Shown piece after piece: positions 1 to 18,159 of a stretch of DNA of 64,000 nt (the stretch's first letter is position 1; the number at the start of each line of letters is the position of its first letter). Origin of the DNA: Limisphaerales bacterium (lineage in GTDB: Bacteria > Verrucomicrobiota > Verrucomicrobiia > Limisphaerales > UBA1096); NCBI GenBank assembly GCA_004213515.1, contig SHAK01000009.1, positions 1 to 64,000 on the forward strand. The letters run 5' to 3'. The notes below the pieces were generated by a model. The model was given only the letters and a program-made list of their open reading frames with translations, had not been told where the DNA came from and ran no database searches. A program made the position numbers and the translations under genes.

Positions 1-3000
1 TTACTGCCCAGTCAATACCTTGATCGTTATTTCCATCCAAAGTTACTTCTGCCAATAAAACTTGAATCAGCACTTGACGCTGAGGCTGATCGAGTTGATC
101 GATCATTTCTGAAACCTGCTCAAAATAACGAGGGCTAGCAGAAACAAGTAATGCGTTATTAGTTGGTTCTGCAACGATGGCAACCTCTTCGTCAAGCAGT
201 CTCTGCGCGGTGCCAACCGCCTCCGTACCAAGTACAGCTTGTACTCGTTGACGGGCCTGATCAAGAAATTGCGTAAGAGCCAATGCAATTTCTTCAGCCT
301 GTGCATTTTTCAAACGATAAACCTTAGTAATCCTTTCTTGAGCAGGGCTAGAATCAAGCTCCGTAATAATCTGTATTGCCAACGAGACATAGTGCTCAGA
401 CCCACCAACCAATAAACTATTTGTACGAATGTCAACCGTTACTGTAAGCGCGTTTTGCTCCGCTGTACCAATTGTGGGCTCGTTCTCTCCGCCAATTAAA
501 GGCTTTGATGGCTTAACTAATGTATAACGAATAGAACGAGAATTAGAATCCCCAGCTGCAGCCTCCAAACGAAATAAATTAGTCAACACTTCTGCCATTC
601 GTCCAGCATCTGCATTACTCAATTGAAGCACCTTGATTTGAGCAATCTGAGGCGAACTTGAATCAAGCTTCTTAATCACTTGCTCAATTAATTCCATGTT
701 ATCTACAGGAGCAGAGACCACTAGTGAGTTAGTTCGTGGATCTGGAGTAATTAAAACGCCTTCGCGTAATCCAGTAGCAACTAATTCATTATCCTCAATA
801 GTTCGAGTGATAAATTGCAACAGTTCTTGGCGGTCAGCACTCTGAGAAGTTAGGTTCAAAGGTTTGGTGTTAAGTGCAGTATTAAGAAGTAGTGCCAAGT
901 CAGTAGCACTGGCATGTTTTAGTGCAAAAACACGAATTTCAGACACTCGACTTACTTCATCAGTATCTAATTGCTGAGCTAGTTCTTCGATTCGCTTAAG
1001 GTCGTTTTCACCTGCTGAAACAACAAGCGCATTAATTCGCTCATCAACGCTGATAGCTACAGAAGGTCCAGTTGTTGAGCCTGTATCTCGATACAAACCC
1101 TGAATAATCTGAGACACACTAGAGGCATTTGCTTTTGAAAGAGATAAAACGGCTACATTTATATCTGGATCTGTTTGTTCAGAATCTAAACGTTTCACCA
1201 AATCACGAACCATAGGAAGATCCTCGGTTGTAGCACCAACAACTAAAGAATTAGCAATAGAATCAGCAATAATTGTAACCGGTTGAGGAGTTTGACCTCC
1301 TTGAGGAGTTGTTCGGCCAGCAAAAAGTCGATCAAGCATAGTTTTAAGTTTTACAGCAGAACCATTCTTTAAAGAAATCACTTCATATTGATTCAGAGCT
1401 ACAACCGCATCAGCATCTAATTTCTCAAGTAATTTATCGATAATGGAGAAACTTTCCTTTCCACCTGTTATCAGCAAAGTGTTAGTACGTTCATCCGGAG
1501 TTACAGCAACAGGAACAACAGCGTCAGCATCACCCACAGAGGCTTCTGCTGTTCTTTTGGATTTAAAAAATGAATCAATTGTTGCTGCTAAACGTGTAGC
1601 CGATGCATGTTGCAATTGATAAAGTTTTAATGCACCGGATTTGGCATAGTTTTGAGTATCAATTTGATTAACGACTTCACGTACAACAGCCAAATTTTCA
1701 GGACTAGCTGAGATGATAAGAGTATTAGTGGCAAGGTCCACTGAAATTGCGATACTCTCACGACTAGCCCGAGCCGCTCTTGATCGAGTAGACCCAGGAC
1801 GATACAAACCCTGCTTAATTAAAGAGCGCAACATAGCAGCTGCTCGCTGGGCATCAGCATAATTCAAAGGAATAATCGTTAACTGACTTGTCTCTGCCGT
1901 AGGTTCAATATCAATTTTCGCCACAAGTTCTCTAATCAATTCGAGGTTCTCATTACTTGCAGTAATAATTAGTGAATTAGTTAACCCGTCAGATTCAACA
2001 TTTACTCTCTCTTGTGCCTGACTTGGTTCACCTGGTTGAAGCAAGTTTCGGCGCCTAGCAGAAAAAACATCGTTAACCATTCCTGCAACTTGCGAAGAGT
2101 CATTGTGAACCAATGGCAATACTTCAACTTTTATCCCTGGATTATCAGATTTTTTATCTAATTTTAGAATCAAACTATTTACGATAGCTAGAGTTTTTGA
2201 AGAAGCTGAAATTATTAAAGCATTTGTCCTCCCATCCACAACGATGTTTGGAAGATCTTCTTGTCGAATTTGATCCCTCGACTGACCTTTATAAAGATTT
2301 TCGATTATATTCTGTATTGTAGAAGCATTTGCATAATCTAAAGGATAAATTTGAATTGCCTCCATACCTCCAACCGATGGAATATCCAAAGTATTAATGA
2401 TTTCTTTAATTAATGGCAATAAATCTGATCGAGCTGCCACAATAAGTGTATTTGAACGGTCATCCCCTTGAATTGACAATGCGTCACGAGCTGCAGGAGC
2501 ATCCGAGGTAATAACTCCCTCTTCCTGCATATGTAGCCTTAAGCGAGTTACTTGCCTACTTATTCCCTCACGTGAAGGGTCGTTGTTATTTTCATTAAAA
2601 ACAGATTGTAACATAGGAACTACTTGATCAGTAGAAGCATGTTTTAATTTAAAAACTTTCACATCGGTTACAAAATTTTCAACATCCTTATCTAAGTCAG
2701 TAATTAACCTTTCAGCTAAATCAACTGAATCAGGGTTGCCACTCATAATGATGCTATTACTTCGATCATCTACCCCAAAATTTAATTGATCTACTAAAGC
2801 TTTTCCTCCACTCCCCTCAGGCTCGGCTTTTCCTCCAGGGCCTTCTCCAAGAGATTGGCTTTGTGAAAAAATATTTTCTAAAGTATCACGAACATCTTCA
2901 GCATTTGCATAGCTTAAAGCGACAAGACGAACAGTTACCCCATCAATAATTGAAACTGAATCCATCAAACTCACAAACGCTTTTAACGCAATCATATTAT

Positions 3001-6000
3001 CAGGAGTAGAAGTGACAATAAGTCGATTAATACCATCTGAAGATTCACCAAAAATCTTAATTGGCTGAGTCAAATCTAATTGCACCGGCTGACCTTCATT
3101 GTTTGTAAGATTTAATTTCTGAATCTGCTCAACCAAGTTTTGTGCCTCTTCCGTAAGCCCCCCTTTACTGGCATCTGCACGAATCATCGTCTGCACAATC
3201 TCTGCTAAGTTTTCAGCATTAGCTTTGCGTAATTCAATGATTTCAACATCAGCCTCAGCAAAGGCTGCAGGGACATCAATACGTTCAATAATTTTGGAAA
3301 TTTGATCGAACATATCTGGTCTAGCCAAGACGACAACTGATTCCGTTCTAGCATCTGGCCTCACATCTAAAATTTCACCAGGACTAGTTACTTTCAACTC
3401 TTCAAAATACTCTTGAAGATATTCCACAGCATCATCAGGTTTTGCATTTCGTAATTCAAAAAACTTCATGTCAATTTGACTTAGACTGGGCTTATCCAGA
3501 TTTTCGACTAGCACATCAATATATTCAAAATCTAGCGCTTCTCCCCTAATGATAACTGATCGAGTTCGCAAATCAGGAACAGCCACGACCTTAGGTGGTT
3601 GAGGAACCTTTTTGGTCTTTCCATCTTCGACTACTGTTTTTTCAGGCCTTGAATAAATATCCAAAATTGCCTTAGCCAACCCTTCAGGATCGGCTTCCTT
3701 CAATACATATGTTCGAAACTCTGCATCACTTTCAATGATTGTATAATTTAAGTCATCTACAATACGGGATACTCGATCCAATTCATTTGACTTTCCTGAA
3801 GCTAAAATTGCATTAATTTTTTCATCTACCGCAATATATATAACACCTTCCTCTTCGGTAGAATCTTTCTGATTGTTTTGATCATCATCATTAATACCAG
3901 GCAGTTCATCTACTAATTTTATAGTTACCCCTGATAGCTTCGAATAAAATCCCGTTAAGGTTTCAGCAAGGTCTCTAGCGGGAACCCCCTCGGATGAAAT
4001 CACTCTAATTTGTAAAGTCTTATCAATAGCTGCTTCGTCCAAGCTAGCAATCATTTCGTCGATTTCGGTAATCTGATCTGATGTAGCAATCAAAGTTATA
4101 CTGTTAGTAAAAAGATCAGCCTGAATAATTGGCTGCTTTGCATCATCCAGCTCGCTAAAAAGTTGAGTGATTTGATCAGTCACTATAACGGCATCCGCAT
4201 TTTCAAGCAGGACATAATGTATCTGACGCGGCACTCTCTCTGGCTTAATATCAAGCATTGTTAATAGATTCGTTACCATCGGCAACTGTTCCTTAGGAAC
4301 CAATACAAATAAACTGTTCGTTTCAAGATTCGGCCATATCTCCACTAAGTCTCTTATCTGCCGGCTATTGATTTTAGATTTTGGATTTAAGGACAACACT
4401 TGCTCCACCATACTCTCAAGGATTTCACCAACAGCTTCGGCCTCAGTATGTTTTAATTTAAATAGCTGAATCTGTGCATTTTCTACAGCATCCTCTGGCT
4501 TCACATCCAGCATGCCAATTAGATTTTTGGCAACTGGTATTTGATCAGGAGGAACTAAAACAAAGATACTGTTTGTATCTCCATGGGGCCATATTCTTAC
4601 CAATCTGGCCATTTGACTGGTTGATAACCCGGGTCTCGGATTCAAATAAAAAAGCCGCTCCATCATGTCTTCCAACAAATTCGCAACCTCTTCCGCATCC
4701 CCAAATTTCAATGGAAATAACTGAATTTCACCTAGCTGTTCTTGCACTTCACTGGAAGTGTCCAACATTTTCACTAATCTCTCTGTTAATGGCTGAAGGT
4801 CAGGAGGAACAACACCCATTAAAGTATTACTTTCTTCATGTGTCCAAAAACGAACTGAATACCTACGCGCTCTTCGCTCCTCTTCAGAACCTGGTGCTAA
4901 TTGAGCCATACGATCTATTATGTCCTCTAATACCGTACCTAGCCTAGATGCACGGGCATGTTCTACTGGGTAAACTTTTAACTCACCACTTTGAAGTGCT
5001 TCCTCTGTCTTTTGGTCAAGTAATGGAATAAGTTTTTCAACTAAAGCAGTTTGTCTGGGTGGGACTAAAACAAACAACGTTTTTGTCGGTTCATCACCCC
5101 AAACTCGGACTTGATAACGCCTGCGTGAACGGTCTTCAGACGATCCGGGCATTAACATAAGCACTCGCTCAACCATATCCTCAAGTGTTTGACCTACAGA
5201 TTTTACCTCGCCATTTTCAAGTTTGTATATCTTGATATCAACACCGCCCTCTGTTTCACCTTTAATATCAAGTTGACGCACCAACTCAGTTACTGTTTTC
5301 ACCAACTCAACAGGTCCAACAATAAGCAAACTATTGGAATTAACCTCAGGAGTCACTGTGACTTCCGGGTTCTCATCACTTGAACTACTGCTTCTACTTC
5401 TAGACGAACTGCTATTTCTACTTCTAGACGAACTGCTGCGAGCACTGCCTCCACCTTGTAGCGCTCGATTAACAGCATCTGCAACAGAAGCCGCTTCGGC
5501 TTTTTCAAGATGAACAACTTCCATAACAGACGCCTCAGGTCGCTCCATCTTATCAAGTGTTTGCACTAAGTCTTCCGCCATCGAAAGCTGGGACGGGGTT
5601 CCTTGAACGATTACAGCATTTATTGCCTTTGCCGATGTCACCTTAGCTTTTGCCTGCTGAGTTGAACTTCTGCCATATCGAGAACGATAATAGCTACTAC
5701 TCCGGTAACTAGAGGACGAAGTGTCATCTGCCCCTAACATCTCACGTAAAACCTTGGCAATATCCTCCGATTCGCCTCTGACCAATCGGAAAGTCTTTAT
5801 TCCATGGGTCACTTCAGCAGCTGTCTGAAAATCTTTTATTAGTTTTTCTATTTTTTTAAACTGTTCCTGAGTTGCTGCTACCAATAAATGCTTCGTATCC
5901 TCATCCGCCTCAAATTTGGGCTGAATAGCACCACTCGGTGAACCATCTGAACTTTTAAAAATATTATTCAATGCTTGAGCCAAATCACCTGTATCTCCTT

Positions 6001-9000
6001 CCTTCAAACGATAGGATCTCACCTCCACTTCCCCAGAAAAAGTTGGAGCATCTAATTTGTTTACCAGTTCTTCAACTTTAGCCAAATCCTCTAGCTGCCC
6101 GGAAACTACCAGTGATTTATCATCTACAGAGGAAGTAACAGAAAGCTTCATAAGATTATCTGCCAGTTCTAATTCCGCAGAGAAAACGTTAGCAATAACA
6201 CTCATCATTGATGCTGCAGATCCATTTTTGAGTGGATAAACTACTGTCTTTCGATCTCCAACAATTGCTTCTTTATCAAGAGTATCTATAACTTCTTTAA
6301 TCAATGGAAACTGAAGTGTATTCGCAGTTACTATCAATCGATCTCCAATTGAATCAGCTATAATCATTGCATCGGATTCACCCAAATCATTTTTCCCCTT
6401 CATCTGATCAATATAAACCTCCTTTGCCTGAGTAGCCGTCAAATCAGCTTTAGAATTAGACAGAACAAAAACTTTAACCTCTCTATCTGGTTTATCAGAA
6501 ATATTGTCCAACTGCTCAATAATAACAGATGCCGCCTGTAAATTCTCCGGAGCACCAGATACTACCAAAGAATTACTCTTCGTATCTGGCGTAGCACTCA
6601 ATCCAGCAATAGAACCAGTCAAAATCGAAGCTACTTGAACAGGGTCATTAGCCTTCAACTTGAAAACACGAGTGCCTGCTGTTTGTAAGCTAATCTTATC
6701 TAGTTGGTTTATTAATTTTTCAAGCACATCGAATTCATTGTCAGGCGCCATTACAATGAGTCGGTTTCCTGTTGCATCAGCCAAAACTAAAGCCTGATCC
6801 GGGTCAGCTCCCGGTTGATCTTTAAGTTTCTCAGCATAAAGCTGAGTAACAGTTGGAGCGATAATTGAAGCCTCAGTGTTATTTAGATCATAAATTCTAG
6901 TAATTCTCGGACGTGACTTATTATTTTTTAGTCGCAGTTCAGCAATAATTCCTTCTATAGCCTTAACATGATCTTCGGTACCAGTAACAATTAGTGATGC
7001 AGCAGATGGGTCAGAAATAATCTGCGCATCAGCAGATTCCTTAATATTGTCTTTATAACGATCCACATAAACCTGCTCAACCAATGGCTGCAATCTTTCG
7101 ACTTCACTGACATCTCCTAATTCAATAATGCGGGACACTCGCTCCGATTCAATATTAGTTGGCGCCTCCAACTCAGAAACCATCTGTCTAATCTCTTCGA
7201 TTTGAGCAGGAGTGCCCATAACCACAACCTGCTTATCACTAGCACCAGATAAAATCGTTGCAGGATTCCCCGGCAGACCCTCAATTTTAGCCTGATAAGC
7301 ACTTGTAAGTACTGGAACGAGAATCTCTGCATTGCCTTGATTTAACTCAACAACAACAACTCCGCGCTTCGATGATTCCGGAGAAACTAAAAGACCACTT
7401 ACTACATTCTCTGCCTGCTTAATCATGTCTTTAGGCGCAACAATAATGAGGCGCTTTCCACTTGGCTCATGATTAAAACTCACATTGGTTGAGCCTTCCA
7501 CTCCTCTCATTTGCGATCCCCAAACCTGGCCAGCAAGCTTTGAAAGCGATTCTCCATTATCATTCGGAAGTTCAACTACTTTTATATCTTTAGGCTGAAT
7601 CGGATTTCCAACGTCTAATTGTTCCACAATCATTCCTACAGCAAGCAAATCTTCAGGTTTACCCGCCACGATAAGAAGATTACTAACTTCATCAGCTGCA
7701 ACACTTACTCGCCGTGTAATCCTGCCTCGATAATCAGTTGTAACAAATGTATTTTTAATTACTTCAGAAATCTTTTTTGCATCAGCAGACTTAACCTTGA
7801 ATACTCGATTTCCTGCTGACTGACGAGTAGTAGAATCTAATTGCTTAACCAACTTATCGATTTCATCTATTTCATCCTTGTTTCCGGTAATAATAATACG
7901 ATTAGCAGCAGCATCCACCGTAATTGTTGATCGTGGCTTATACGCGCTTCCTTTACGGTCTTTCATTAAAGCTGTAAACAGATCAGTTACCAATGGGCCT
8001 ACCTTACTGGCTTCACCTGCTCTCAACTCTAAAATCCTTAGCTCTAGTGGCTGCTGACGGTTATCAGTATCAAGTTGACGAATAACCCCCTCGGCAGCAG
8101 CAACGGATTTTTCAGCACCACTTAGAATAAGACTGTTACTTGAATCATCAACCAAAAGACTTACTTTGCCCCGATTAGATCCGGCATTGAAACTTTTCTC
8201 AATCAAGCCCGACATATTCTGCGCATTGGCGGAATTCAACCGGATAACCTGAGTCACTTTCTGACCACCACTTTTTCCATTTGATGGCCCAAGCATACGC
8301 ACCAACCCTTCTACTCTTCCTACTTCCTTCTGAGGTCCACTGATAATAACACGGTCATCATCGGAATCTGCTAAAATGGTGGCTGCATTAGCTTTACGCT
8401 CTGGATTATCTCGTAATTGAATTTCATACAACTTGCTAACCGAACTCACAAGTTCAGTTGCTTGTCCTTCAGTCACATCAACAAATTTAAATTGTTGAGG
8501 GCCAAGATCCATTCTGCCCTCGTTAAAATCTTTTGAGAATGCCTCTATTTGCTTATACTCGGGTTCGGTTCCCACAACAACTAACCTAGTACCATCTTGA
8601 TCACTAAAAATTTGCGGCCTACTTCCATCAGGTGAAATCTGGTTATCAAATAGACGTTTAGTTAGTTTTGCTAATTCTTGGCCATTACGATCCTTTAAGC
8701 GGATTACTCGCATTTCACGTTTGGCTGGCTCAGGAGCTGCCGTAACAGTTGCTACGATTTGATCAATGACTAAAAATTGCTCCTCAGTAGCAGTCAGCAC
8801 CATGCGACTTCCAGGTTCATCTGGAAGAATTAAGGGCCTTGGCATTCGTGAAAACTTAACTTCCTGCATTCTTTGATCGATCAGTTTTTGTATCGATTGA
8901 ACCATTTCATTAAATTTACCTCGCTCACGACGAGGCAAACTAATAGAACGTATTTCTCGCTCAAGAAGCAAAGAACTAGTGGATCGATATTCATCGAGAA

Positions 9001-10813
9001 ATACCATGATTCGCTTGTACTGATTTTCAGTCGATAAAACTATTAAACGTTTACCTCCGGTGTCCTCCACTACTTGAGGAAAAGGGCCCTCGCTTGGCTT
9101 ATCATTTTCAAACAAACGATTAATTAAAGGGGAAACCTTACGAGATTCAGCACCCTCAAGGTCAACAAAACGCATAGTGCGAGCTGGAATCGAAGGTAAA
9201 ACATCCAAAGACCTTACTACTTGCTCAACCACTTGATGCTGGTTTGAACTTGCAGTCACGATCACTCGATTATTGTCGCGATCTTGAATCATTCTAGGCT
9301 TGGGCTGCTCCTTAAAGGGAACCTCATTCATTCTTTCATTAACAAGTGATTCAATGTTGCGATAAATACGATCTATTTTGTGATTAACCAAAGTCAACAT
9401 CACTGTAGTGCGCGGCTCTGAGACCGGTTCTTTCAATCCTATTTCAAGTTGCTTTATAATAGTTTCTGCCGTTTCGACATCGCCAGGGGACCCCGTAATA
9501 ATAAGGCTTCGAGTTGAATCATCTTTTGAAATTGCCAAACGAGGCCTTGGATCACCAGAAGGAAAAATGTCTGATGTTGCATTCTTAACCGCATTACTAA
9601 GAGTTTCTAGATCAAGTGACTTAATTCTATAAACACGAGTAATATTAACTGAAGAACTTAACTTGGTAGGAGAACCTGCAGAACCAGTGCCGTCTACTTG
9701 TAATACAAATTTTTCAATTAACTCTAGCTGCCCTGAAACAGGGGCTGATGCAATAATACGATTCAGTTTACTGTCGACAATAATACGGGCTTTAAGCTTG
9801 GCTGCATCAGAAGTGTCACCCTTTTGAGCAACACCTTCAACACCCTCCCGAATCATGGAAGCAAGCTCTTCTGCAGTCATCTTAGCCGGATGGAAAATTT
9901 TCACATCGCCTGCCTTACCCTCACCAGTCTCGAACTGCATAAGCAGGGTGCTAGCCAATTCAACTTGCTCAGAAGGACCAAATAAAACCATAGTCCTAGA
10001 TGCCTCGTCGTAGACTGCAGTTACATAGGTCGCAGGTTCAGGATCAAAAGAATCATATCTCTTAGTCTTATCATTAAATTTAAGTCTTTTAGGAACTGAA
10101 GACTTACCAAATGTCTTATTTATGAGCTCCGCTACTACCGCCCCAGAAGAATGTTTTAATGAGTGTGTTTTCATCAGACGCTCTGCTGATGGACCGACAT
10201 CAATTTCAGCTAATAACTGACGAATCCGCTGAATACTTTCAAGTCGATCAGTAATAATTAGCCCCTTTCCTCGTGACAATGGAGCAATCGAACCTGCACT
10301 GGTTAATAATGAAGTTGCTGCAGTTGAGACCTCTGCTGCATCAAGGTACTGTAATTGTATAACAAAAGTAACGATTTGCCCTGGTCTTACATCGCCGGAA
10401 GCATCAGATCCTCGAAGAACTTTTAAAGGAAGTTTTTTTAAATTCTCTAACTTAGTTAATTGTAAGAATCGCCCATTCTCGACAAGAGCAACTCCCTTCA
10501 TCGATAGGATTACATTAAACACGTCCAAAGCTTCCCGATATGAATAAGGCTCTGGATCAAAAAACGTCAAAGTACCTTCTAATGAAGATTCTACAATTAA
10601 TGGTTTATTAGCCATCTGTGAGAACCTCTGCAAGGCATCCGAATATGATACACCTTCAAACTGAATACGGATGTCACGTTTTTGTTTTTCTTGACCACCC
10701 TTTTCTAAAAGTTGATCAGGTACTTTAGATTCTTCATCCAAAGCGATTATTTCGCTAAAAGGACTGGTGAAACTAAGCAAAAAAAATGTAATTAATCTAA
10801 AATGATTTATCAT
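1..10813 (-). CDS. Giant secretin-like protein with about 42 tandem N1-type modules (3' end outside window)
   Basis: The frame starts at an ATG at 10813 and stays open to base 1, giving 3604 codons without a stop. Residues 1-25 look like a signal peptide (hydrophobic ITFFLLSF). Residues about 45-125 resemble the secretin N0/STN domain. I then count about 42 consecutive modules of about 70-100 residues. Each has a strand (for example VKVFKLKHA), a helix, a variable loop, a second strand of the pattern D-x-R-T-N-S-L-I-V-x-A, and a helix ending in Q-L-D; this is the secretin_N (N1) fold pattern. The final visible residues, RQVLIQVLLAEVTL...GIDWAV, match the start of the GspD/PilQ barrel domain. 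Ordinary secretins carry two to four such modules, so the length is exceptional. Serine/arginine-rich inserts interrupt modules near residues 1695 and 1790. The role is probably an outer-membrane pore of a type II or type IV-pilus-like machine; this is inferred from the family. The barrel itself is not visible. Confidence 0.9.
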   Translation of the reverse strand, partial: MINHFRLITFFLLSFTSPFSEIIALDEESKVPDQLLEKGGQEKQKRDIRIQFEGVSYSDALQRFSQMANKPLIVESSLEGTLTFFDPEPYSYREALDVFNVILSMKGVALVENGRFLQLTKLENLKKLPLKVLRGSDASGDVRPGQIVTFVIQLQYLDAAEVSTAATSLLTSAGSIAPLSRGKGLIITDRLESIQRIRQLLAEIDVGPSAERLMKTHSLKHSSGAVVAELINKTFGKSSVPKRLKFNDKTKRYDSFDPEPATYVTAVYDEASRTMVLFGPSEQVELASTLLMQFETGEGKAGDVKIFHPAKMTAEELASMIREGVEGVAQKGDTSDAAKLKARIIVDSKLNRIIASAPVSGQLELIEKFVLQVDGTGSAGSPTKLSSSVNITRVYRIKSLDLETLSNAVKNATSDIFPSGDPRPRLAISKDDSTRSLIITGSPGDVETAETIIKQLEIGLKEPVSEPRTTVMLTLVNHKIDRIYRNIESLVNERMNEVPFKEQPKPRMIQDRDNNRVIVTASSNQHQVVEQVVRSLDVLPSIPARTMRFVDLEGAESRKVSPLINRLFENDKPSEGPFPQVVEDTGGKRLIVLSTENQYKRIMVFLDEYRSTSSLLLEREIRSISLPRRERGKFNEMVQSIQKLIDQRMQEVKFSRMPRPLILPDEPGSRMVLTATEEQFLVIDQIVATVTAAPEPAKREMRVIRLKDRNGQELAKLTKRLFDNQISPDGSRPQIFSDQDGTRLVVVGTEPEYKQIEAFSKDFNEGRMDLGPQQFKFVDVTEGQATELVSSVSKLYEIQLRDNPERKANAATILADSDDDRVIISGPQKEVGRVEGLVRMLGPSNGKSGGQKVTQVIRLNSANAQNMSGLIEKSFNAGSNRGKVSLLVDDSSNSLILSGAEKSVAAAEGVIRQLDTDNRQQPLELRILELRAGEASKVGPLVTDLFTALMKDRKGSAYKPRSTITVDAAANRIIITGNKDEIDEIDKLVKQLDSTTRQSAGNRVFKVKSADAKKISEVIKNTFVTTDYRGRITRRVSVAADEVSNLLIVAGKPEDLLAVGMIVEQLDVGNPIQPKDIKVVELPNDNGESLSKLAGQVWGSQMRGVEGSTNVSFNHEPSGKRLIIVAPKDMIKQAENVVSGLLVSPESSKRGVVVVELNQGNAEILVPVLTSAYQAKIEGLPGNPATILSGASDKQVVVMGTPAQIEEIRQMVSELEAPTNIESERVSRIIELGDVSEVERLQPLVEQVYVDRYKDNIKESADAQIISDPSAASLIVTGTEDHVKAIEGIIAELRLKNNKSRPRITRIYDLNNTEASIIAPTVTQLYAEKLKDQPGADPDQALVLADATGNRLIVMAPDNEFDVLEKLINQLDKISLQTAGTRVFKLKANDPVQVASILTGSIAGLSATPDTKSNSLVVSGAPENLQAASVIIEQLDNISDKPDREVKVFVLSNSKADLTATQAKEVYIDQMKGKNDLGESDAMIIADSIGDRLIVTANTLQFPLIKEVIDTLDKEAIVGDRKTVVYPLKNGSAASMMSVIANVFSAELELADNLMKLSVTSSVDDKSLVVSGQLEDLAKVEELVNKLDAPTFSGEVEVRSYRLKEGDTGDLAQALNNIFKSSDGSPSGAIQPKFEADEDTKHLLVAATQEQFKKIEKLIKDFQTAAEVTHGIKTFRLVRGESEDIAKVLREMLGADDTSSSSYRSSSYYRSRYGRSSTQQAKAKVTSAKAINAVIVQGTPSQLSMAEDLVQTLDKMERPEASVMEVVHLEKAEAASVADAVNRALQGGGSARSSSSRSRNSSSSRSRSSSSSDENPEVTVTPEVNSNSLLIVGPVELVKTVTELVRQLDIKGETEGGVDIKIYKLENGEVKSVGQTLEDMVERVLMLMPGSSEDRSRRRYQVRVWGDEPTKTLFVLVPPRQTALVEKLIPLLDQKTEEALQSGELKVYPVEHARASRLGTVLEDIIDRMAQLAPGSEEERRARRYSVRFWTHEESNTLMGVVPPDLQPLTERLVKMLDTSSEVQEQLGEIQLFPLKFGDAEEVANLLEDMMERLFYLNPRPGLSTSQMARLVRIWPHGDTNSIFVLVPPDQIPVAKNLIGMLDVKPEDAVENAQIQLFKLKHTEAEAVGEILESMVEQVLSLNPKSKINSRQIRDLVEIWPNLETNSLFVLVPKEQLPMVTNLLTMLDIKPERVPRQIHYVLLENADAVIVTDQITQLFSELDDAKQPIIQADLFTNSITLIATSDQITEIDEMIASLDEAAIDKTLQIRVISSEGVPARDLAETLTGFYSKLSGVTIKLVDELPGINDDDQNNQKDSTEEEGVIYIAVDEKINAILASGKSNELDRVSRIVDDLNYTIIESDAEFRTYVLKEADPEGLAKAILDIYSRPEKTVVEDGKTKKVPQPPKVVAVPDLRTRSVIIRGEALDFEYIDVLVENLDKPSLSQIDMKFFELRNAKPDDAVEYLQEYFEELKVTSPGEILDVRPDARTESVVVLARPDMFDQISKIIERIDVPAAFAEADVEIIELRKANAENLAEIVQTMIRADASKGGLTEEAQNLVEQIQKLNLTNNEGQPVQLDLTQPIKIFGESSDGINRLIVTSTPDNMIALKAFVSLMDSVSIIDGVTVRLVALSYANAEDVRDTLENIFSQSQSLGEGPGGKAEPEGSGGKALVDQLNFGVDDRSNSIIMSGNPDSVDLAERLITDLDKDVENFVTDVKVFKLKHASTDQVVPMLQSVFNENNNDPSREGISRQVTRLRLHMQEEGVITSDAPAARDALSIQGDDRSNTLIVAARSDLLPLIKEIINTLDIPSVGGMEAIQIYPLDYANASTIQNIIENLYKGQSRDQIRQEDLPNIVVDGRTNALIISASSKTLAIVNSLILKLDKKSDNPGIKVEVLPLVHNDSSQVAGMVNDVFSARRRNLLQPGEPSQAQERVNVESDGLTNSLIITASNENLELIRELVAKIDIEPTAETSQLTIIPLNYADAQRAAAMLRSLIKQGLYRPGSTRSRAARASRESIAISVDLATNTLIISASPENLAVVREVVNQIDTQNYAKSGALKLYQLQHASATRLAATIDSFFKSKRTAEASVGDADAVVPVAVTPDERTNTLLITGGKESFSIIDKLLEKLDADAVVALNQYEVISLKNGSAVKLKTMLDRLFAGRTTPQGGQTPQPVTIIADSIANSLVVGATTEDLPMVRDLVKRLDSEQTDPDINVAVLSLSKANASSVSQIIQGLYRDTGSTTGPSVAISVDERINALVVSAGENDLKRIEELAQQLDTDEVSRVSEIRVFALKHASATDLALLLNTALNTKPLNLTSQSADRQELLQFITRTIEDNELVATGLREGVLITPDPRTNSLVVSAPVDNMELIEQVIKKLDSSSPQIAQIKVLQLSNADAGRMAEVLTNLFRLEAAAGDSNSRSIRYTLVKPSKPLIGGENEPTIGTAEQNALTVTVDIRTNSLLVGGSEHYVSLAIQIITELDSSPAQERITKVYRLKNAQAEEIALALTQFLDQARQRVQAVLGTEAVGTAQRLLDEEVAIVAEPTNNALLVSASPRYFEQVSEMIDQLDQPQRQVLIQVLLAEVTLDGNNDQGIDWAV
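4290..5241 (-). repeat. Four closely related N1 modules inside the giant secretin
   Basis: Within the giant secretin, modules beginning near nt 5241, 4999, 4740 and 4485 are spaced 81-86 codons apart. They resemble each other more than the other modules do. Each has a long helix of the type LEDMVERVL, then V-R-x-W, then a strand such as NSIFVLVPP or close variants, and an ending close to MLD. This suggests recent duplication in place. Boundaries are estimated by eye from the translation. Confidence 0.7.
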
Positions 10814-10992
10814 AATTTAAAAAGATCGATATATTCAGTTATGCATAAATATAACTCAAGGTATCGAAACAATTACCCCACAAGAGTAAAGACCGTTCAA
10901 AACAACATGTCCATGTGTACTTATTCACAACTTTCCCACAAGTTGAACACAGCTTGGATATCAGGGTTAAATTTGATAATAAATGCCCAAGC
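10814..10992. promoter_or_regulatory. Divergent intergenic region between giant secretin and PQQ propeller gene
   Basis: These 179 bases separate two divergently transcribed genes and so should hold both promoters. The region is AT-rich. I could not assign -35/-10 boxes with confidence, and neither start has a strong Shine-Dalgarno sequence. One TTATTCACA (10921-10929) matches the DnaA-box consensus, but a single match is expected by chance in a window of this size. Confidence 0.35.
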
Positions 10993-12642
10993 ATGACTGA
11001 TTCACAGCATAAAGCATTCAATAAAAAACCTCGCTGGTGGCCAGCGATCATAATTTCCGCTGTTCTTTTAGTTATTATTTTCTTTACTGACCAAGATTTT
11101 AATTTAGGAACCACAGAAGGAGATAACCATCAAAAACAGGTTTTTAAGACGATTGGAACCACCGCAATAGGATTCTTATTACTTCTTATATGGGCACTCT
11201 TTTTTGCACGTTTTTCAGGAACTACACGCCTAAAAATACTTGGCAGTATTACTTTAGTAACAGGTGTTTTTCTTACATGCTTTCGGTTTAGCCAGTTCAG
11301 TGGAAATATGGTACCGATATTTGAATGGCGATGGTCGCAAAGAGAGCTTCCTACTGCAAAAAAAGAGCAACCTAATAATCCTAACAAAAAAACAGAACCT
11401 GATTATTTATCTACACTATCTTTTTCTCAGTTTTTAGGGACAAATCGAGATTGTAAAATAACAGGATCCGAACTCGCAACAGACTGGGTCAAAAATCCAC
11501 CCAAACAACTTTGGCGACAGGCAATAGGAGCCGCTTGGTCCGGTTTTTCAATTTCTGGTTATCGCGCAATTACTCAAGAGCAACGTGAAGAAAATGAATC
11601 TGTCACCTGTTATCATATTGAAACAGGAGAAGTTCTTTGGATCACAGAGAACTCTGGCCATTATAACACCGCAATCGCCGGAGAAGGGCCACGAGCAACC
11701 CCGACCATTGTTAAAAATAAAGTTTTCGCACTAGGAGCTGAAGGTGCATTAAGCTGCCTTGATCTCGAAAATGGTAAAAAAATTTGGCAACGTAATCTAG
11801 TATCCGATGCTGAACTAGACTCGAATGAACCAATAGATCAAACCGGCGCGTCAAAGCCTCGCAATAAAAGCAAAGAATGGGGGTTTAGCAGTTCTCCGCT
11901 TGTGATCGATGATAAAGTGATTGTTAGCGCTGGAGGTGAAAACGGAAAATCACTAATTGCATACGATATATATAACGGCAATCCAATCTGGAAAGGTGGC
12001 AGCAGTCCAGCAGGATACAGCTCAGCCATTTCTTTCAGTATCAACAAAGAACGACAGATATTAATATTTAATCATGATGGGCTCTCAGCACATTCACCTG
12101 AAAACGGTAAGGTTCTATGGACATTTCCATGGGCCACTTCAACTCCACATGTTGCAGTTCCACTAATAGTTTCGGAAAACCAATTATTAGTTAGCTTAGG
12201 CTATGGAAATGGAAGCAAACTTATTGAATTATCCCAGCAGGATGGAAATTATTCTGCTAAAGAACTTTGGCATTCACGCCGAATGAAAGCAAAATTCACA
12301 AATCTCATTTTTCATAACAATCATGTCTTTGGATTAGATGACGGCATTTTCTCTTGTATGGAGATGGAAAAAGGAAGGCCTAAATGGAAAGATGGACGCT
12401 ACGGACACGGACAGATCCTTCTACGCAATAATCATATTCTCGTTATGGCAGAAAATGGTGAATTAATTATGCTTGATGCAAATCCTGAAAGGCATATAGA
12501 GCGCACAAGATTCTCAGCACTTAATGGCAAAACTTGGAATCCACCGGCCTTGGCAGGAGAATACTTACTCGTTCGCAATCATCGAGAAGCTGCATGCTAT
12601 AAACTCCCGCTAAAATCCTCCCAGATCGTTATAGCTCAATGA
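10993..12642 (+). CDS. Membrane-anchored PQQ-type beta-propeller protein
   Basis: The chosen start is ATG 10993 (MTDSQHKAFN); an upstream in-frame ATG at 10915 would add 26 residues and hide the membrane-anchor layout. The 549-residue protein has three hydrophobic segments (about 15-33, 54-74, 80-98). A repetitive region from about residue 140 follows, with blades such as GEVLWITE, GKKIWQRN, GNPIWKGG and GKVLWTFP, typical of PQQ_2/BamB-like propellers. The propeller should lie outside the cytoplasmic membrane. Many PVC proteins of this shape are annotated as outer-membrane assembly factor-like, but nothing shows that it binds PQQ. Its TGA overlaps the ATG of the following molybdoenzyme (ATGA at 12639-12642), so the two are probably translated together, and the propeller may serve that enzyme. 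Confidence 0.85.
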   Translation: MTDSQHKAFNKKPRWWPAIIISAVLLVIIFFTDQDFNLGTTEGDNHQKQVFKTIGTTAIGFLLLLIWALFFARFSGTTRLKILGSITLVTGVFLTCFRFSQFSGNMVPIFEWRWSQRELPTAKKEQPNNPNKKTEPDYLSTLSFSQFLGTNRDCKITGSELATDWVKNPPKQLWRQAIGAAWSGFSISGYRAITQEQREENESVTCYHIETGEVLWITENSGHYNTAIAGEGPRATPTIVKNKVFALGAEGALSCLDLENGKKIWQRNLVSDAELDSNEPIDQTGASKPRNKSKEWGFSSSPLVIDDKVIVSAGGENGKSLIAYDIYNGNPIWKGGSSPAGYSSAISFSINKERQILIFNHDGLSAHSPENGKVLWTFPWATSTPHVAVPLIVSENQLLVSLGYGNGSKLIELSQQDGNYSAKELWHSRRMKAKFTNLIFHNNHVFGLDDGIFSCMEMEKGRPKWKDGRYGHGQILLRNNHILVMAENGELIMLDANPERHIERTRFSALNGKTWNPPALAGEYLLVRNHREAACYKLPLKSSQIVIAQ

Positions 12643-13271
12643 AAGAGGATTTCATTCGCAGAAAAGAACGATGGGCAAAAAAAATGTCCACTAAAGAACG
12701 TAGCATTCGCCCGAATGCTGGGAGGCTCCCCCCAGGCCAGCATGAAGTAAGCAATTTTCCAGTTTTAGACTTGGGAGTTCATCCGAAAGTTTCATTAGGT
12801 GATTGGCAATTAAAAATTCACGGTGAAGTCGAAAAACCTACAACACTAAATTGGAATCAATTTATGGAATTGCCTCAGTTTCGTGATACTAGCGACTTTC
12901 ATTGCGTCACTACGTGGAGCCAATTCAATATGGAGTTTGAAGGTGTTGCTTTTTACACTTTAGCAGATCTGGTTAAGCCAACAGCAAACGCCTCACATAT
13001 ATTTTTCATCGGATATGATGAATACACCACCAACACAACTCTCGAAGCCTGCATGGACGATGATGTAATGATCGCTCATTCATGGAACGGCCATATCCTT
13101 ACACTTGAACACGGAGGTCCAGCTCGAATGATAATACCAAAACTTTATGCATGGAAAGGAGCCAAATTTATTAAGGAAATAATTTTCCGAGACCACGACG
13201 AACTTGGCTTTTGGGAGAACCGGGGGTACTCCAATACAGCTAATCCATTTATTGAAGATCGGTTTGCTTAA
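12639..13271 (+). CDS. Sulfite-oxidase-like molybdopterin oxidoreductase
   Basis: The 210-residue protein matches the molybdopterin-binding (Oxidored_molyb, YedY/sulfite oxidase-like) family. Cys89 in DFHCVTTWS is the expected molybdenum ligand. GGPARMIIPKLYAWKGAKF near the C-terminus is the usual cofactor-binding segment. The length fits the short, single-domain branch without a dimerisation domain. No signal peptide or Tat motif is visible, which suggests a cytoplasmic enzyme; the substrate is unknown. The start overlaps the preceding gene by four bases, and the gene ends 11 bp from the convergent DUF1501 gene. Confidence 0.88.
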   Translation: MKEDFIRRKERWAKKMSTKERSIRPNAGRLPPGQHEVSNFPVLDLGVHPKVSLGDWQLKIHGEVEKPTTLNWNQFMELPQFRDTSDFHCVTTWSQFNMEFEGVAFYTLADLVKPTANASHIFFIGYDEYTTNTTLEACMDDDVMIAHSWNGHILTLEHGGPARMIIPKLYAWKGAKFIKEIIFRDHDELGFWENRGYSNTANPFIEDRFA

Positions 13272-13282
13272 AAATATTCAAC

Positions 13283-14722
13283 TCAAGCCAGTATGCCATC
13301 AACAATTTTTGGTGAATCCTCCGGTCCAATCAGTCTTTGATCCAAACCTTGATAGCGATAGCTAAATCTGAATGGGTCAAGCCCAAGTAAATTCAGAATA
13401 GTAGCCTGTAAATCATGAACATGAACAGGATTTCTCGCTACAGAATAACCTAGTTCGTCAGTTTCACCATAAGTAATTCCATGATTCAGTCCCCCTCCAG
13501 CCATCCAAACTGTAAAACAGTCTGGATGATGATCACGGCCGAGAAACTTTGATCCATTACGTTCCTCGTTCATTGAGGTACGACCGAACTCGCCACCCCA
13601 AACTACAAGTGTTTCATCTAACAAACCTCGCTGCTTGAGGTCCTTTAAAAGCGCTGTAACCGACTTATCATTCTCACCACATTTAATTGGCAATTGCTTA
13701 ACCAAATCGTTGCTAGCTCCAGTACCATGAAAATCCCATCCCCAATCAAATAACTGGACAAAACGCACACCTTGTTCGACTAAACGACGAGCCAATAGGC
13801 AATTATTTGCGAATGAGGCTTTTCCTGGCTGTGCGCCATACTGGTCAATTGTTGTTTTAGATTCTCTGGAAATATCCATAACTTCGGGCACACTAATCTG
13901 CATACGATAGGCCAACTCATATTGATTAATTCTAGACAATGTTTCAGGATCGCCAATTTCTCGGAACTCTTGTTCGTTCAACTTCTTCAAAGCATCTAAA
14001 CTACGTCGTCTAACCTCTCTACTCATTCCTTTCGGATTAGAAACATAGAGTATTGGATCACCTGTACTCCGACATTGAACACCCTGATAAACTGAAGGCA
14101 AATAACCGCTTCCCCACAAACTCTTACCTCCTGAAGGATCCGTGCCGCCTGAGATTAACACAACAAAACCTGGCAAATTCGCGTTCTCTGAACCCAAACC
14201 GTATGTTATCCAAGACCCCATCGAAGCTGCCCCGTTCCTAGGTGAACCTGTATATAATAGCATCTGTGCCGGAGCGTGATTGAACTGATCAGTGAACATT
14301 GACTTAATAAAGGTTAAGTCATCAGCCATCTCAGTTAATTGTGGATACATGTTACTTAACCACTGACCATTTTGACCATACTGCTTGAACTCATGTGGAG
14401 AACCGAGCAATTTAGGATGCCCTTTTATGAATGGCAATCGACGCCCTTCGATAAATTCCTTGGGACAAGGCGTATTGTTCAACTCATTTAGTTTTGGCTT
14501 GTAGTCAAAGAGATCCAATTGCGGAGGCGAACCAGCCATATGAAGATAAATTACATTTTTTATTTTGGCCTTCGAGTGAGATGAACGAGCCGCGAGAGGA
14601 TCAACTCCTGCACCCGCTTTATTCATTAAGGATCCAAGAGCCAAAGATCCAAGACCAACTTGACATCGATTCAAAAAGTGACGTCGAGTAATGAACTGAG
14701 CCTGTTGTGAATTAATATTCAT
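13283..14722 (-). CDS. DUF1501 family Tat-exported protein
   Basis: A 479-residue protein of the DUF1501 family (alkaline-phosphatase-like fold), abundant in Planctomycetes and Verrucomicrobia. Residues 13-14 are a twin arginine in TRRHFLNRC followed by a hydrophobic stretch, so Tat export is likely. Motifs include HMAGSPPQLDLFD, GWDFHGTG, VVWGGEFGRTS and GRDHHPDCF, which resemble metal-ligand regions of sulfatase/phosphatase-like folds. It lies 17 bp downstream of the cytochrome/DUF1549/DUF1553 gene; these two families almost always occur as a pair in PVC genomes. The biochemical role of the pair is not established, although glycan degradation at the cell surface is often proposed. Confidence 0.92.
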   Translation of the reverse strand: MNINSQQAQFITRRHFLNRCQVGLGSLALGSLMNKAGAGVDPLAARSSHSKAKIKNVIYLHMAGSPPQLDLFDYKPKLNELNNTPCPKEFIEGRRLPFIKGHPKLLGSPHEFKQYGQNGQWLSNMYPQLTEMADDLTFIKSMFTDQFNHAPAQMLLYTGSPRNGAASMGSWITYGLGSENANLPGFVVLISGGTDPSGGKSLWGSGYLPSVYQGVQCRSTGDPILYVSNPKGMSREVRRRSLDALKKLNEQEFREIGDPETLSRINQYELAYRMQISVPEVMDISRESKTTIDQYGAQPGKASFANNCLLARRLVEQGVRFVQLFDWGWDFHGTGASNDLVKQLPIKCGENDKSVTALLKDLKQRGLLDETLVVWGGEFGRTSMNEERNGSKFLGRDHHPDCFTVWMAGGGLNHGITYGETDELGYSVARNPVHVHDLQATILNLLGLDPFRFSYRYQGLDQRLIGPEDSPKIVDGILA

Positions 14723-14739
14723 TTTACAGTATTTATTTA

Positions 14740-17700
14740 TTAACCCTTCATTAATATTGCATCCAGATTCAGAAGGACATTAGCTAGGACTGTATAAGCA
14801 GCCATTTGCGAAAAATCCGCACCATTGGGTATTGGAGCAATTTTACCATATAAATTTTTAGCAGCCTCAGTCCTTTTACCGTAATAAGCCAACTCACTTT
14901 CATAAAGCTCCATTAGCGCCGACAATCGCTTCTCTTCTGGCGGTTTGGCTAATGTGAGTCTCAAAGCATACTTAATTCTATCTCTAACTGTCGCTCCTCC
15001 TTCGTTGAAAATTCGGTATGCCATTGCTTGTGCAAATTCAACATATGCTTCGTCATTCATTGTAACAAATGACTGTAATGGAGTATTAGTTCTAATTCTC
15101 CTAACGGCACAAATCTCCCTGCTTGGAGCATCAAATGTTGCCATCGAAGGATAAGGAACTGTTCGCCGAAGGAATGTATAAAAACCTCTGCGGTAACGAT
15201 CTTCACCACTACTAGTTGCCCAATTACGCTGACCATTAAATGCAGCCTGCCATAAATTCGGAGGTTGAGGAGGATAAACAGATGGGCCGTACATTTTCTC
15301 GCTCTTTAAACCACTCAACGCCAATGCTTGATCCCTAACCATTTCAGCCTCCAATCGAAACCTTGGACCACGTCCAAGACGAATATTTCGAAAATCACTT
15401 TCAGCCAATTTACCTTGCACCTTAGGCGACTGAGCATATGTAGCTGACATGACTATCGTCTTAATAAGATTTTTCATATCCCATCCGTTTGTTTGAAAAT
15501 CAACTGCTAGCCAATCTAACAATTCTGGATGATCGGGAATATTACCTTGAGTCCCAAAATCCTCCTCTGAATCAAGTAGTCCTCTACCAAAAAACTGCGC
15601 CCAAAAACGATTTACAGCAACACGAGCCGTAAGCGGATTATCTTCCTGCAACAACCATTTTGCGACACCTAAGCGATTGAACGGTGCACCCTTCTTTGGT
15701 TTATGAAAAGCCTCAGGAAAACCGGACTGGACCTGCTCACCTTTAGAAAGAAAATTCCCCTTAACCATAATATATGTTTTACGCCGCTTATCTTTTGGTA
15801 ATTCCTGCATATAAGGAGTAGTGACAATCGAATCACGAAATTTCTTTTCATCTTTTTTCTTTAATTCTATCTGCTCACGTAACGGATCCAGCTCTTTAGC
15901 AAAAGTGCGATAGTGCGACTCTATCTTTTCACGTTGAAAACTTGTGCGCTCGGATTCAGCTACAAGTAATATTGGTAAAATATCTTCGGGGAAGTCAGCT
16001 TCTTTCAAGCTAAAATAAAAACCACTTTTATTATCGTCATTAGCTATCTTTATCAGGATTTCATTCTCTCCCTTATCTAGTGAAACTGTCACTATCTCTT
16101 GGTCTGGTTGCGCATCTCGCTTAATTTTCTTTGACAAAACTTCACGGCCATTTAACCAGAGCTTTAATCCATCTCCACTTCCCAATGAAATTTTTTGTGA
16201 ACCCTCAATTTGAGGAGTCAACTTTCGACGCAAATAAATTGTTTCATTTGCCCCTAAATTCAAATCATGTACTTCAGCATCATTCCAATGAGGCTTATTC
16301 GTCCATTTAAAATCAGTTTTCCCAGAATCGGCAGATCGCGAAAAGACCTGAACTTCAGCAAGAGACAATATTGGTTCATTCCGATCTTTTATAGGCAACA
16401 ACTCCACCCGAACTATTGATACCTCTCTTTCCGTTTTAAACGGAATAGAAAATCCCTCATCAGCTTTAGGGTTACCCTTCTTGTCAGAAAAAAAATCTTT
16501 TTGAAATAGTACCTCTCGCTTCGAGTCTAACCCCAACACGCGGAATGCTGACAAGCGATCGGAAGCTTCAGCCCGATTCCAAAGAACAACCTGCGACACA
16601 TCAGTTGGCTTTAATAAAATCACTTCCCACCACGGTGATTTATCATCAGGGTTTTGTGTATGAGTTACAGAATTATTAGCATAAACCCCTGAAGTATTCC
16701 CATCTATAGCCAATTTAGCGAAACCATCGTAAGCTGTCGATGACTGCCTAGCTACTCCTTGAGGCGCAACGTTCAAACCGATAGCCAAACTTTCTGGTTT
16801 AAAAGAATAGCTAAAAGCAGAATCAAAAGAATCTGATTTAAAGGGCCCAATAGACTCCCAAACTGACTTTTTTGGCTTTGGTTTTGCTAAGTCTCGCAAT
16901 GATTTCAGCTCCCAATTCTGCTGCCCATTTGCCAATTCTGGCGTATGTACATTCAACATAGACTCAAGCGATTTAATCTCTTTTGAAATAACTTCCAATT
17001 TTTCAGTTTGCTCCTTACTAGGATAAGGCAAACGAGGAGAATCATCTCCTCTATCAGCATCTTGGCTCTGATTAAAAAATGAATAAAATTGGTAATATTC
17101 CTTTTGAGTAATAGGATCATATTTATGGGTATGACATTTTGCACAACCCATTGTCAAACCCATCCAAACTTGCATTGTGGTATCTACACGATCACGGACT
17201 GCCTCTGTTCTAAACTCTTCATCATCAGTTCCTCCTTCAGTATTGGTTTTGGTATTACGGTGAAATGCTGTAGCTAACAATTGGTCTCTGCTTGGTTTAA
17301 CTAATAGATCCCCCGCTAACTGATTAACAGTGAACTGATCATAAGGCATGTTTTGATTAAATGCATTAATCACCCAATCACGATATTTCCATATCACCCT
17401 CAGGGGATCTGATCCGTATCCCGCCGAATCCGCAAAGCGAGCTAAGTCGAGCCAAACACGAGCCCAACGTTCTCCGAAAGCTGGACGAGACAACAAATCA
17501 TCTACAAGTGACTCATATGCATTTGATCTCTTGTCATTTAAGAACCTCTCTACTTCTGCAGGACTTGGGGGAAGGCCATTTAGATCTAGGAAAAGCCTGC
17601 GAATGATCGTGTATCGATCCGCCAGCTTGTTGGGATGATGCCCGGTCGCTTCTAACTTCGATAAAATAAAATAATCAATAGCATTCTTCACCCAATCTTG

Positions 17701-18159
17701 ATCACTTACATCAGGGATCTTAGGACGTACAGGAGGAACAAAAGCCCAGTGTCTATCATAAGCAACCCCATCATCAATCCACTTGCCAATTAGCTCAATC
17801 TCTTCTGAAGTCAATTCATGACCACTGTCTGGAGGAGGCATGATTTCATCTTTATCGGAAACCAATAATCTGGCATATAATTCACTTTCATTCCTTTTTC
17901 CAGGAACCACTGCAGGAACACCCTTGCGTTCAGCAACAACAGCATCTCTAATATCTAAACGCAAACCAGCCTTACGCGTACCATCATCTGGTCCATGACA
18001 TGAAAAACAATTGCGAGAAAGGACTGGACGAATGTCACGATTGTAATCAATCGCTTCCCCAACGGCTGCTTGATTACAAAAACAAACGATAATGCAAAAT
18101 CCAAAAATAAGTTTCAGTTGTTTTAGAATAAAACTCACGTCTTTAAGAAAAAATGACAC
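14740..18159 (-). CDS. Planctomycete-type cytochrome c / DUF1549 / DUF1553 protein
   Basis: The 1139-residue secreted protein starts with a hydrophobic leader. A PSCyt1 haem motif follows (Cys51-Cys54-His55 in NCFSCHG), then DUF1549 (PSCyt2), including [18 protein letters not shown] and a second CxxCH in [14 protein letters not shown] middle region follows, and then DUF1553 ([26 protein letters not shown]). The middle region contains what looks like an F5/8 type C (discoidin-like) carbohydrate-binding domain ([18 protein letters not shown] ... [13 protein letters not shown]). Only GTG-type starts are available at the 5' end; 18159 is used, and 18138 is an alternative. It is transcribed just ahead of the DUF1501 gene. 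Function is unknown beyond the likely electron-transfer and glycan-surface context. Confidence 0.92.

Follow-up and report, generated by a model that had tools for sequence, protein, structure and literature searches.

At the start of the window, by which we mean the whole 64,000-nucleotide stretch of Limisphaerales DNA analysed here, lies a giant secretin gene, gspD, which occupies the reverse strand and comprises the following features.

2 to 10813, reverse strand: giant gspD, truncated at its 3' end by the end of the contig, with 3604 codons present
10739 to 10813, reverse strand: likely signal peptide (residues 1-25), judged by eye only
10370 to 10639, reverse strand: N0 domain (residues 59-148), from PF21305 and from a Foldseek search with a model of N0 and N1 modules
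83 to 10369, reverse strand: 42 tandem N1 (Secretin_N) modules, the ring-building type (residues 149-3577)
2 to 82, reverse strand: start of the secretin barrel (residues 3578-3604, QVLIQVLLAEV...), aligned with the complete barrels of relatives

The frame begins with an ATG at 10813, contains no stop in 3604 codons, as had been predicted from the DNA alone, and is still open at base 1 of the window. This base is the terminus of contig C93 in a draft genome of 103 contigs that is 77% complete. The original prediction also placed the first strand of the barrel at this edge and looked for the remainder downstream; the last 27 residues of the window protein (3578-3604) do form barrel strand 1, and the missing part was located on contig C14 of the same genome, which opens with a 189-residue barrel C-terminus (G000:C14:3-569). 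The top match of this piece elsewhere is the C-terminus of a 3899-residue frame from the same genus, with 84% identity; across 3596 codons that frame shares 90.7% identity with the window protein. In both the C14 contig and the same-genus relative a lipoprotein gene follows the end of the barrel. We infer that C93 and C14 carry the two ends of one gspD gene, with a gap between them that, by arithmetic from the lengths, holds about 100-115 residues of the giant protein. On the other side of the gene, at window positions 10915-18159, the neighbours are genes for a PQQ/BamB-like propeller protein and for an oxidoreductase that binds molybdopterin, and beyond these come DUF1501 and PSCyt1/PSCyt2/PSD1 genes. 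T2SS genes are absent from this side.

The N-terminal region and the repeat array were delineated with curated and custom profiles. The GspD N0 model PF21305 covers residues 59-114 with 28.0 bits against a cut-off of 27, in agreement with the N0-like domain originally proposed. PF03958 (Secretin_N) matches the window protein with E=0 and 1048 bits and is found along the chain in 38 separate stretches in Pfam, while a profile seeded with 12 modules chosen by hand, and then iterated against the same protein, resolves 42 modules that together cover residues 149-3577 with no sizeable hole between them. When a second HMM was made from 400 modules sampled from relatives it again returned 42, and thus the earlier estimate of about 42 proves to be exact. 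The modules recur with a mean period of 82 residues, and 37 of the 41 linkers are 6-9 residues long. Their number is far above that of characterised secretins, as first supposed.

The giant gene is widespread within one order. In six genomes of the same genus it is present whole and in one frame (3899-4317 residues, 42-47 N1 modules), and a scan of named genomes gave 61 loci, nearly all of them in verrucomicrobial metagenome-assembled genomes. With an N-terminal profile a clear orthologue (E below 1e-69) was detected in 64 of 196 genomes of the order Limisphaerales/Pedosphaerales, distributed over 22 families. Members of the class outside this order yielded no giant gspD orthologue at E<=1e-40, the window's own genome was the sole match in a phylum sample of 195, and the longest secretin frame among the matches listed for 69 phylum genomes was 1369 residues. 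The literature searched, in which subscription papers were thinly covered, held no description of giant or multi-N1 secretins in these phyla. Several records bearing the giant gene are labelled Klebsiella pneumoniae, Akkermansia muciniphila or Proteobacteria (L070, L055, L060, L062, L068, L069 and others), and these labels are probably wrong.

The frame is interrupted at a few loci: L064, L083 and L109 each have a single break, and on the megabase contig of L116 (G194:C38) the gene is split by many frame changes, which are probably long-read error. These broken frames, and the origin of the window in a fragmented, incomplete assembly that cuts the gene at a contig end, might suggest an artefact of assembly or a repeat gene in decay, but independent assemblies from the 22 families carry the gene, and a module resembles its orthologues far more closely than its neighbours in the chain. 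Between the window gene and its nearest relative (90.7% protein identity) the differences at the three codon positions amount to 8.1/3.2/32.2%, a pattern that indicates strong selection on giant gspD. Chance or artefact is excluded by this pattern together with the full-length genes of the six same-genus relatives, leaving aside the small C93-C14 gap, and we assign the artefact reading a negligible probability.

A total of 51 complete giant genes from Limisphaerales/Pedosphaerales, encoding proteins of 2646-5155 residues, were compared for the size of their arrays. The N1 counts are 25, 29 (two genes), 31, 33, 35 (two), 38, 39, 40 (four), 42 (two), 43 (26), 44, 45, 46, 47 (six) and 56; the module after N0, which the second profile often misses, leaving an 80-residue hole, is detected by the first and is counted here as one. 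The commonest count, 43, is held among proteins whose barrels are only about 50% identical. Within the window protein the modules share on average 24% identity, with a maximum of 50%, whereas orthologous modules from other families reach about 45-60% identity at both ends of the array. The far greater likeness of orthologues than of same-chain neighbours indicates that the array is old and has seen no recent expansion.

The giant protein is the outer-membrane secretin GspD of the type II secretion system. The C-terminal parts of two relatives score 430.7 and 386.5 bits with the GspD equivalog model TIGR02517 (cut-off 351.35), and the nearest solved chains are GspDs (5e-69). The PF00263 barrel is complete at the C-terminus in relatives, and its two ends are present on C93 and C14 in the window genome. 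The expected domain order, N0 followed by N1-type domains and the barrel, is found within a single chain, with PF21305 and PF03958 identifying the first two elements, and Foldseek searches with a model of N0 and the first modules match the N domains of PulD, XcpQ and GspD. Other secretin families were rejected: scores with the PilQ model TIGR02515 (239 and 222 bits, cut-off 284) and the type III secretin model TIGR02516 for SctC (199.6 and 194 bits, cut-off 238) fall short, as do those of the C-terminal parts with the MshL model, and the operon is that of a T2SS, E to M, and not a pil operon. The stalk of an ordinary GspD consists of N0 and about three domains of the N1 type. In the window protein 42 stand between N0 and the barrel, and in its relatives 25-56; this is a change in number with no defining part of GspD absent, and the protein is thus a variant of GspD. 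From this identity, export of folded proteins through a multimeric ring complex is predicted.

The genes around the giant secretin bear out this assignment. In other families it closes the run E-F-G-H-I-J-K-L-M, with a lipoprotein gene directly after it, while in part of the window's genus it opens the run, giving D-lipoprotein-E-F-G-H-I-J-K-L-M. The window genome has E and F on C1, the genes from G to M on C49, and D with the lipoprotein gene on C93/C14. The genes for H, I and M were assigned by gene order and BLAST, their Pfam matches being weak or absent. No GspC gene was found. In the giant system M is a protein of about 340 residues and has a C-terminal extension (L136:9271-10296, own-genome C49; L050:8768-9772), which by eye resembles GspC, as in an M-C fusion, and gave no Pfam hit. 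In nearly all loci the giant gene is followed by a conserved protein of 172-180 residues with a likely lipobox (for example L032:569-1099, L051:21709-22239 and L031:15394-15909); two of these proteins were tested and gave no Pfam hit. This lipoprotein is a candidate pilotin. The proposal of a new class of envelope conduit is thus replaced by a GspD with a full type II operon, present in 64 of the 196 genomes of the order.

A second T2SS-like operon occurs in the same order, and its secretin is divided over two genes with the break inside the last N module (L102:3740-6370, reverse strand; L105:4497-7291, forward strand; also L103 and L104). The first gene encodes N0 and three whole N1 modules and ends halfway through the next module; the second encodes the remaining half and the barrel, and both products have a likely signal peptide. 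The half modules were recognised by eye in the L102 and L105 sequences, and in the barrel genes Pfam covers only positions 35-69 of the N1 model. The giant and split kinds coexist in some genomes. The C-like protein of this second operon gave no BLAST match to the M extension of the giant system.

The likely signal peptide, the barrel in the outer membrane and N0 directed towards the inner-membrane platform would place the module array in the periplasm. We narrowly favour the view that the system is a type II channel whose periplasmic stalk of stacked rings is very long and adjustable in length. In the outer membrane about 12-15 chains would come together by way of their C-terminal barrels, aided by the neighbouring pilotin-like lipoprotein, and N0 would dock on the inner-membrane platform formed by L, M and the C-like extension of M. 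The modules between could pile up as successive rings to form a tube of well over 100 nm that would bridge an unusually wide or locally deep periplasm. In this scheme the conserved modules at both ends may make specific contacts, while those in the middle would set the length and could be gained or lost. The short and even linkers (6-9 residues in 37 of 41) favour regular stacking over a loose tether.

How far the array is drawn into rings is the main point on which the alternatives differ. Strong conservation between families is confined to modules 1-3 and about 31-42; the order and identity of modules 1-3 and of most of 31-42 are kept even in the shortest proteins, and the middle of the array diverges between families and varies in number. 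This pattern speaks for a type II GspD in which ring formation is limited to the conserved modules close to the barrel, and close to N0, while the middle modules are flexible or folded-back strands that serve as a variable-distance tether or bind substrate or peptidoglycan. Such an arrangement has no need of a tube of more than 100 nm, although the linkers are short and even throughout and 26 of the 51 genes keep 43 modules, which is unusual for a loose tether; we consider it a serious but distinctly less probable reading than the stacked stalk. AlphaFold2 predicts beta-alpha-beta-beta-alpha N1 folds for the modules, and models of N0 with N1 modules and of six N1 modules with the barrel show the expected secondary structure, with pTM values of 0.33 and 0.32. 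Of the structure prediction suggested at the outset, the N1 fold of the module was therefore borne out and the placement of modules relative to one another was not; pTM values of this order give no reliable inter-module geometry and have no bearing on ring formation. The lack of a fixed geometry between modules also counts in favour of partial rings.

Returning to the stacked stalk, we estimate that, at 3-4 nm for each ring, a stack of 42 N1 rings and N0 would come to about 130-170 nm. More tentatively than the stalk itself, and as a possibility that we stop just short of favouring, we propose that a ring-stacked tube of 100-180 nm traverses a periplasm-like compartment of very great width, and that the number of modules is an evolvable setting for its length. 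Against a tube of this kind stand its length, which is beyond any usual periplasm, and the need for the T2SS pseudopilus to act along so great a distance. We take strain Ellin514, of subdivision 3 of the phylum, to be Pedosphaera parvula. A ribosome-free compartment outside an inner membrane has been reported in Ellin514 (PMC2647929); it may be a wide periplasm, as is now argued for planctomycetes (PMC5394234). A long stalk has a precedent in the PilQ of Thermus, which stacks six N rings, measures about 35 nm and extends across most of a wide periplasm (PMC4463427, PMC5745081); its extra rings are read as a means of bridging that distance.

The frequent count of 43 also lies near 3 x 14-15, and by arithmetic an ordinary GspD 15-mer contains about 45 N1-type domains in total. 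On this basis the rings might be wound from successive modules of a single chain, some 43 modules making about three turns of 14-15 and replacing the N1-N3 rings of many subunits. We regard this as very unlikely. Each chain has one barrel domain, so that a many-chain barrel would bring many arrays with it; counts of 25, 29, 31, 33, 35, 38, 40, 47 and 56 do not suit whole turns; and the window genome showed no separate split-type barrel protein to supply the other barrel units.

If the stacked stalk is correct, the tube would be several times longer than that of any characterised secretin. An array of about 43 N1 modules, several-fold beyond Thermus PilQ, points either to a secretion tube of more than 100 nm or to a new use of N modules. 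The natural length variants, with 25-56 modules, allow the question of length to be tested by comparison between species, and the giant GspD offers a molecular way into the dispute over the wide compartment of PVC bacteria.

What is known in this system is a T2SS GspD with an ordinary operon; what is new is a stalk of 25-56 modules, compared with no more than about six in characterised machines. The closest relatives are the GspDs themselves (TIGR02517; PDB 5wq7, 6hcg and 5zdh), with which the giants share the order of N0, N1-type modules and barrel, a passed curated model and the operon partners, and from which they differ in having 25-56 N1 modules in place of about three and 2646-5155 residues in place of about 650. 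The split GspDs of the same order (L102, L105) belong to a sister operon, K-L-M-(C-like)-D, and barrels of that size class are about 40-52% identical to that of the giant, but they have N0 and three N1 modules, a barrel in the next gene and a normal total size. The PilQ of Thermus thermophilus, with extra N rings that serve as a long stalk, is the best precedent for the working mode, although it belongs to a type IV pilus system and has six N rings in 757 residues (PMC5745081).
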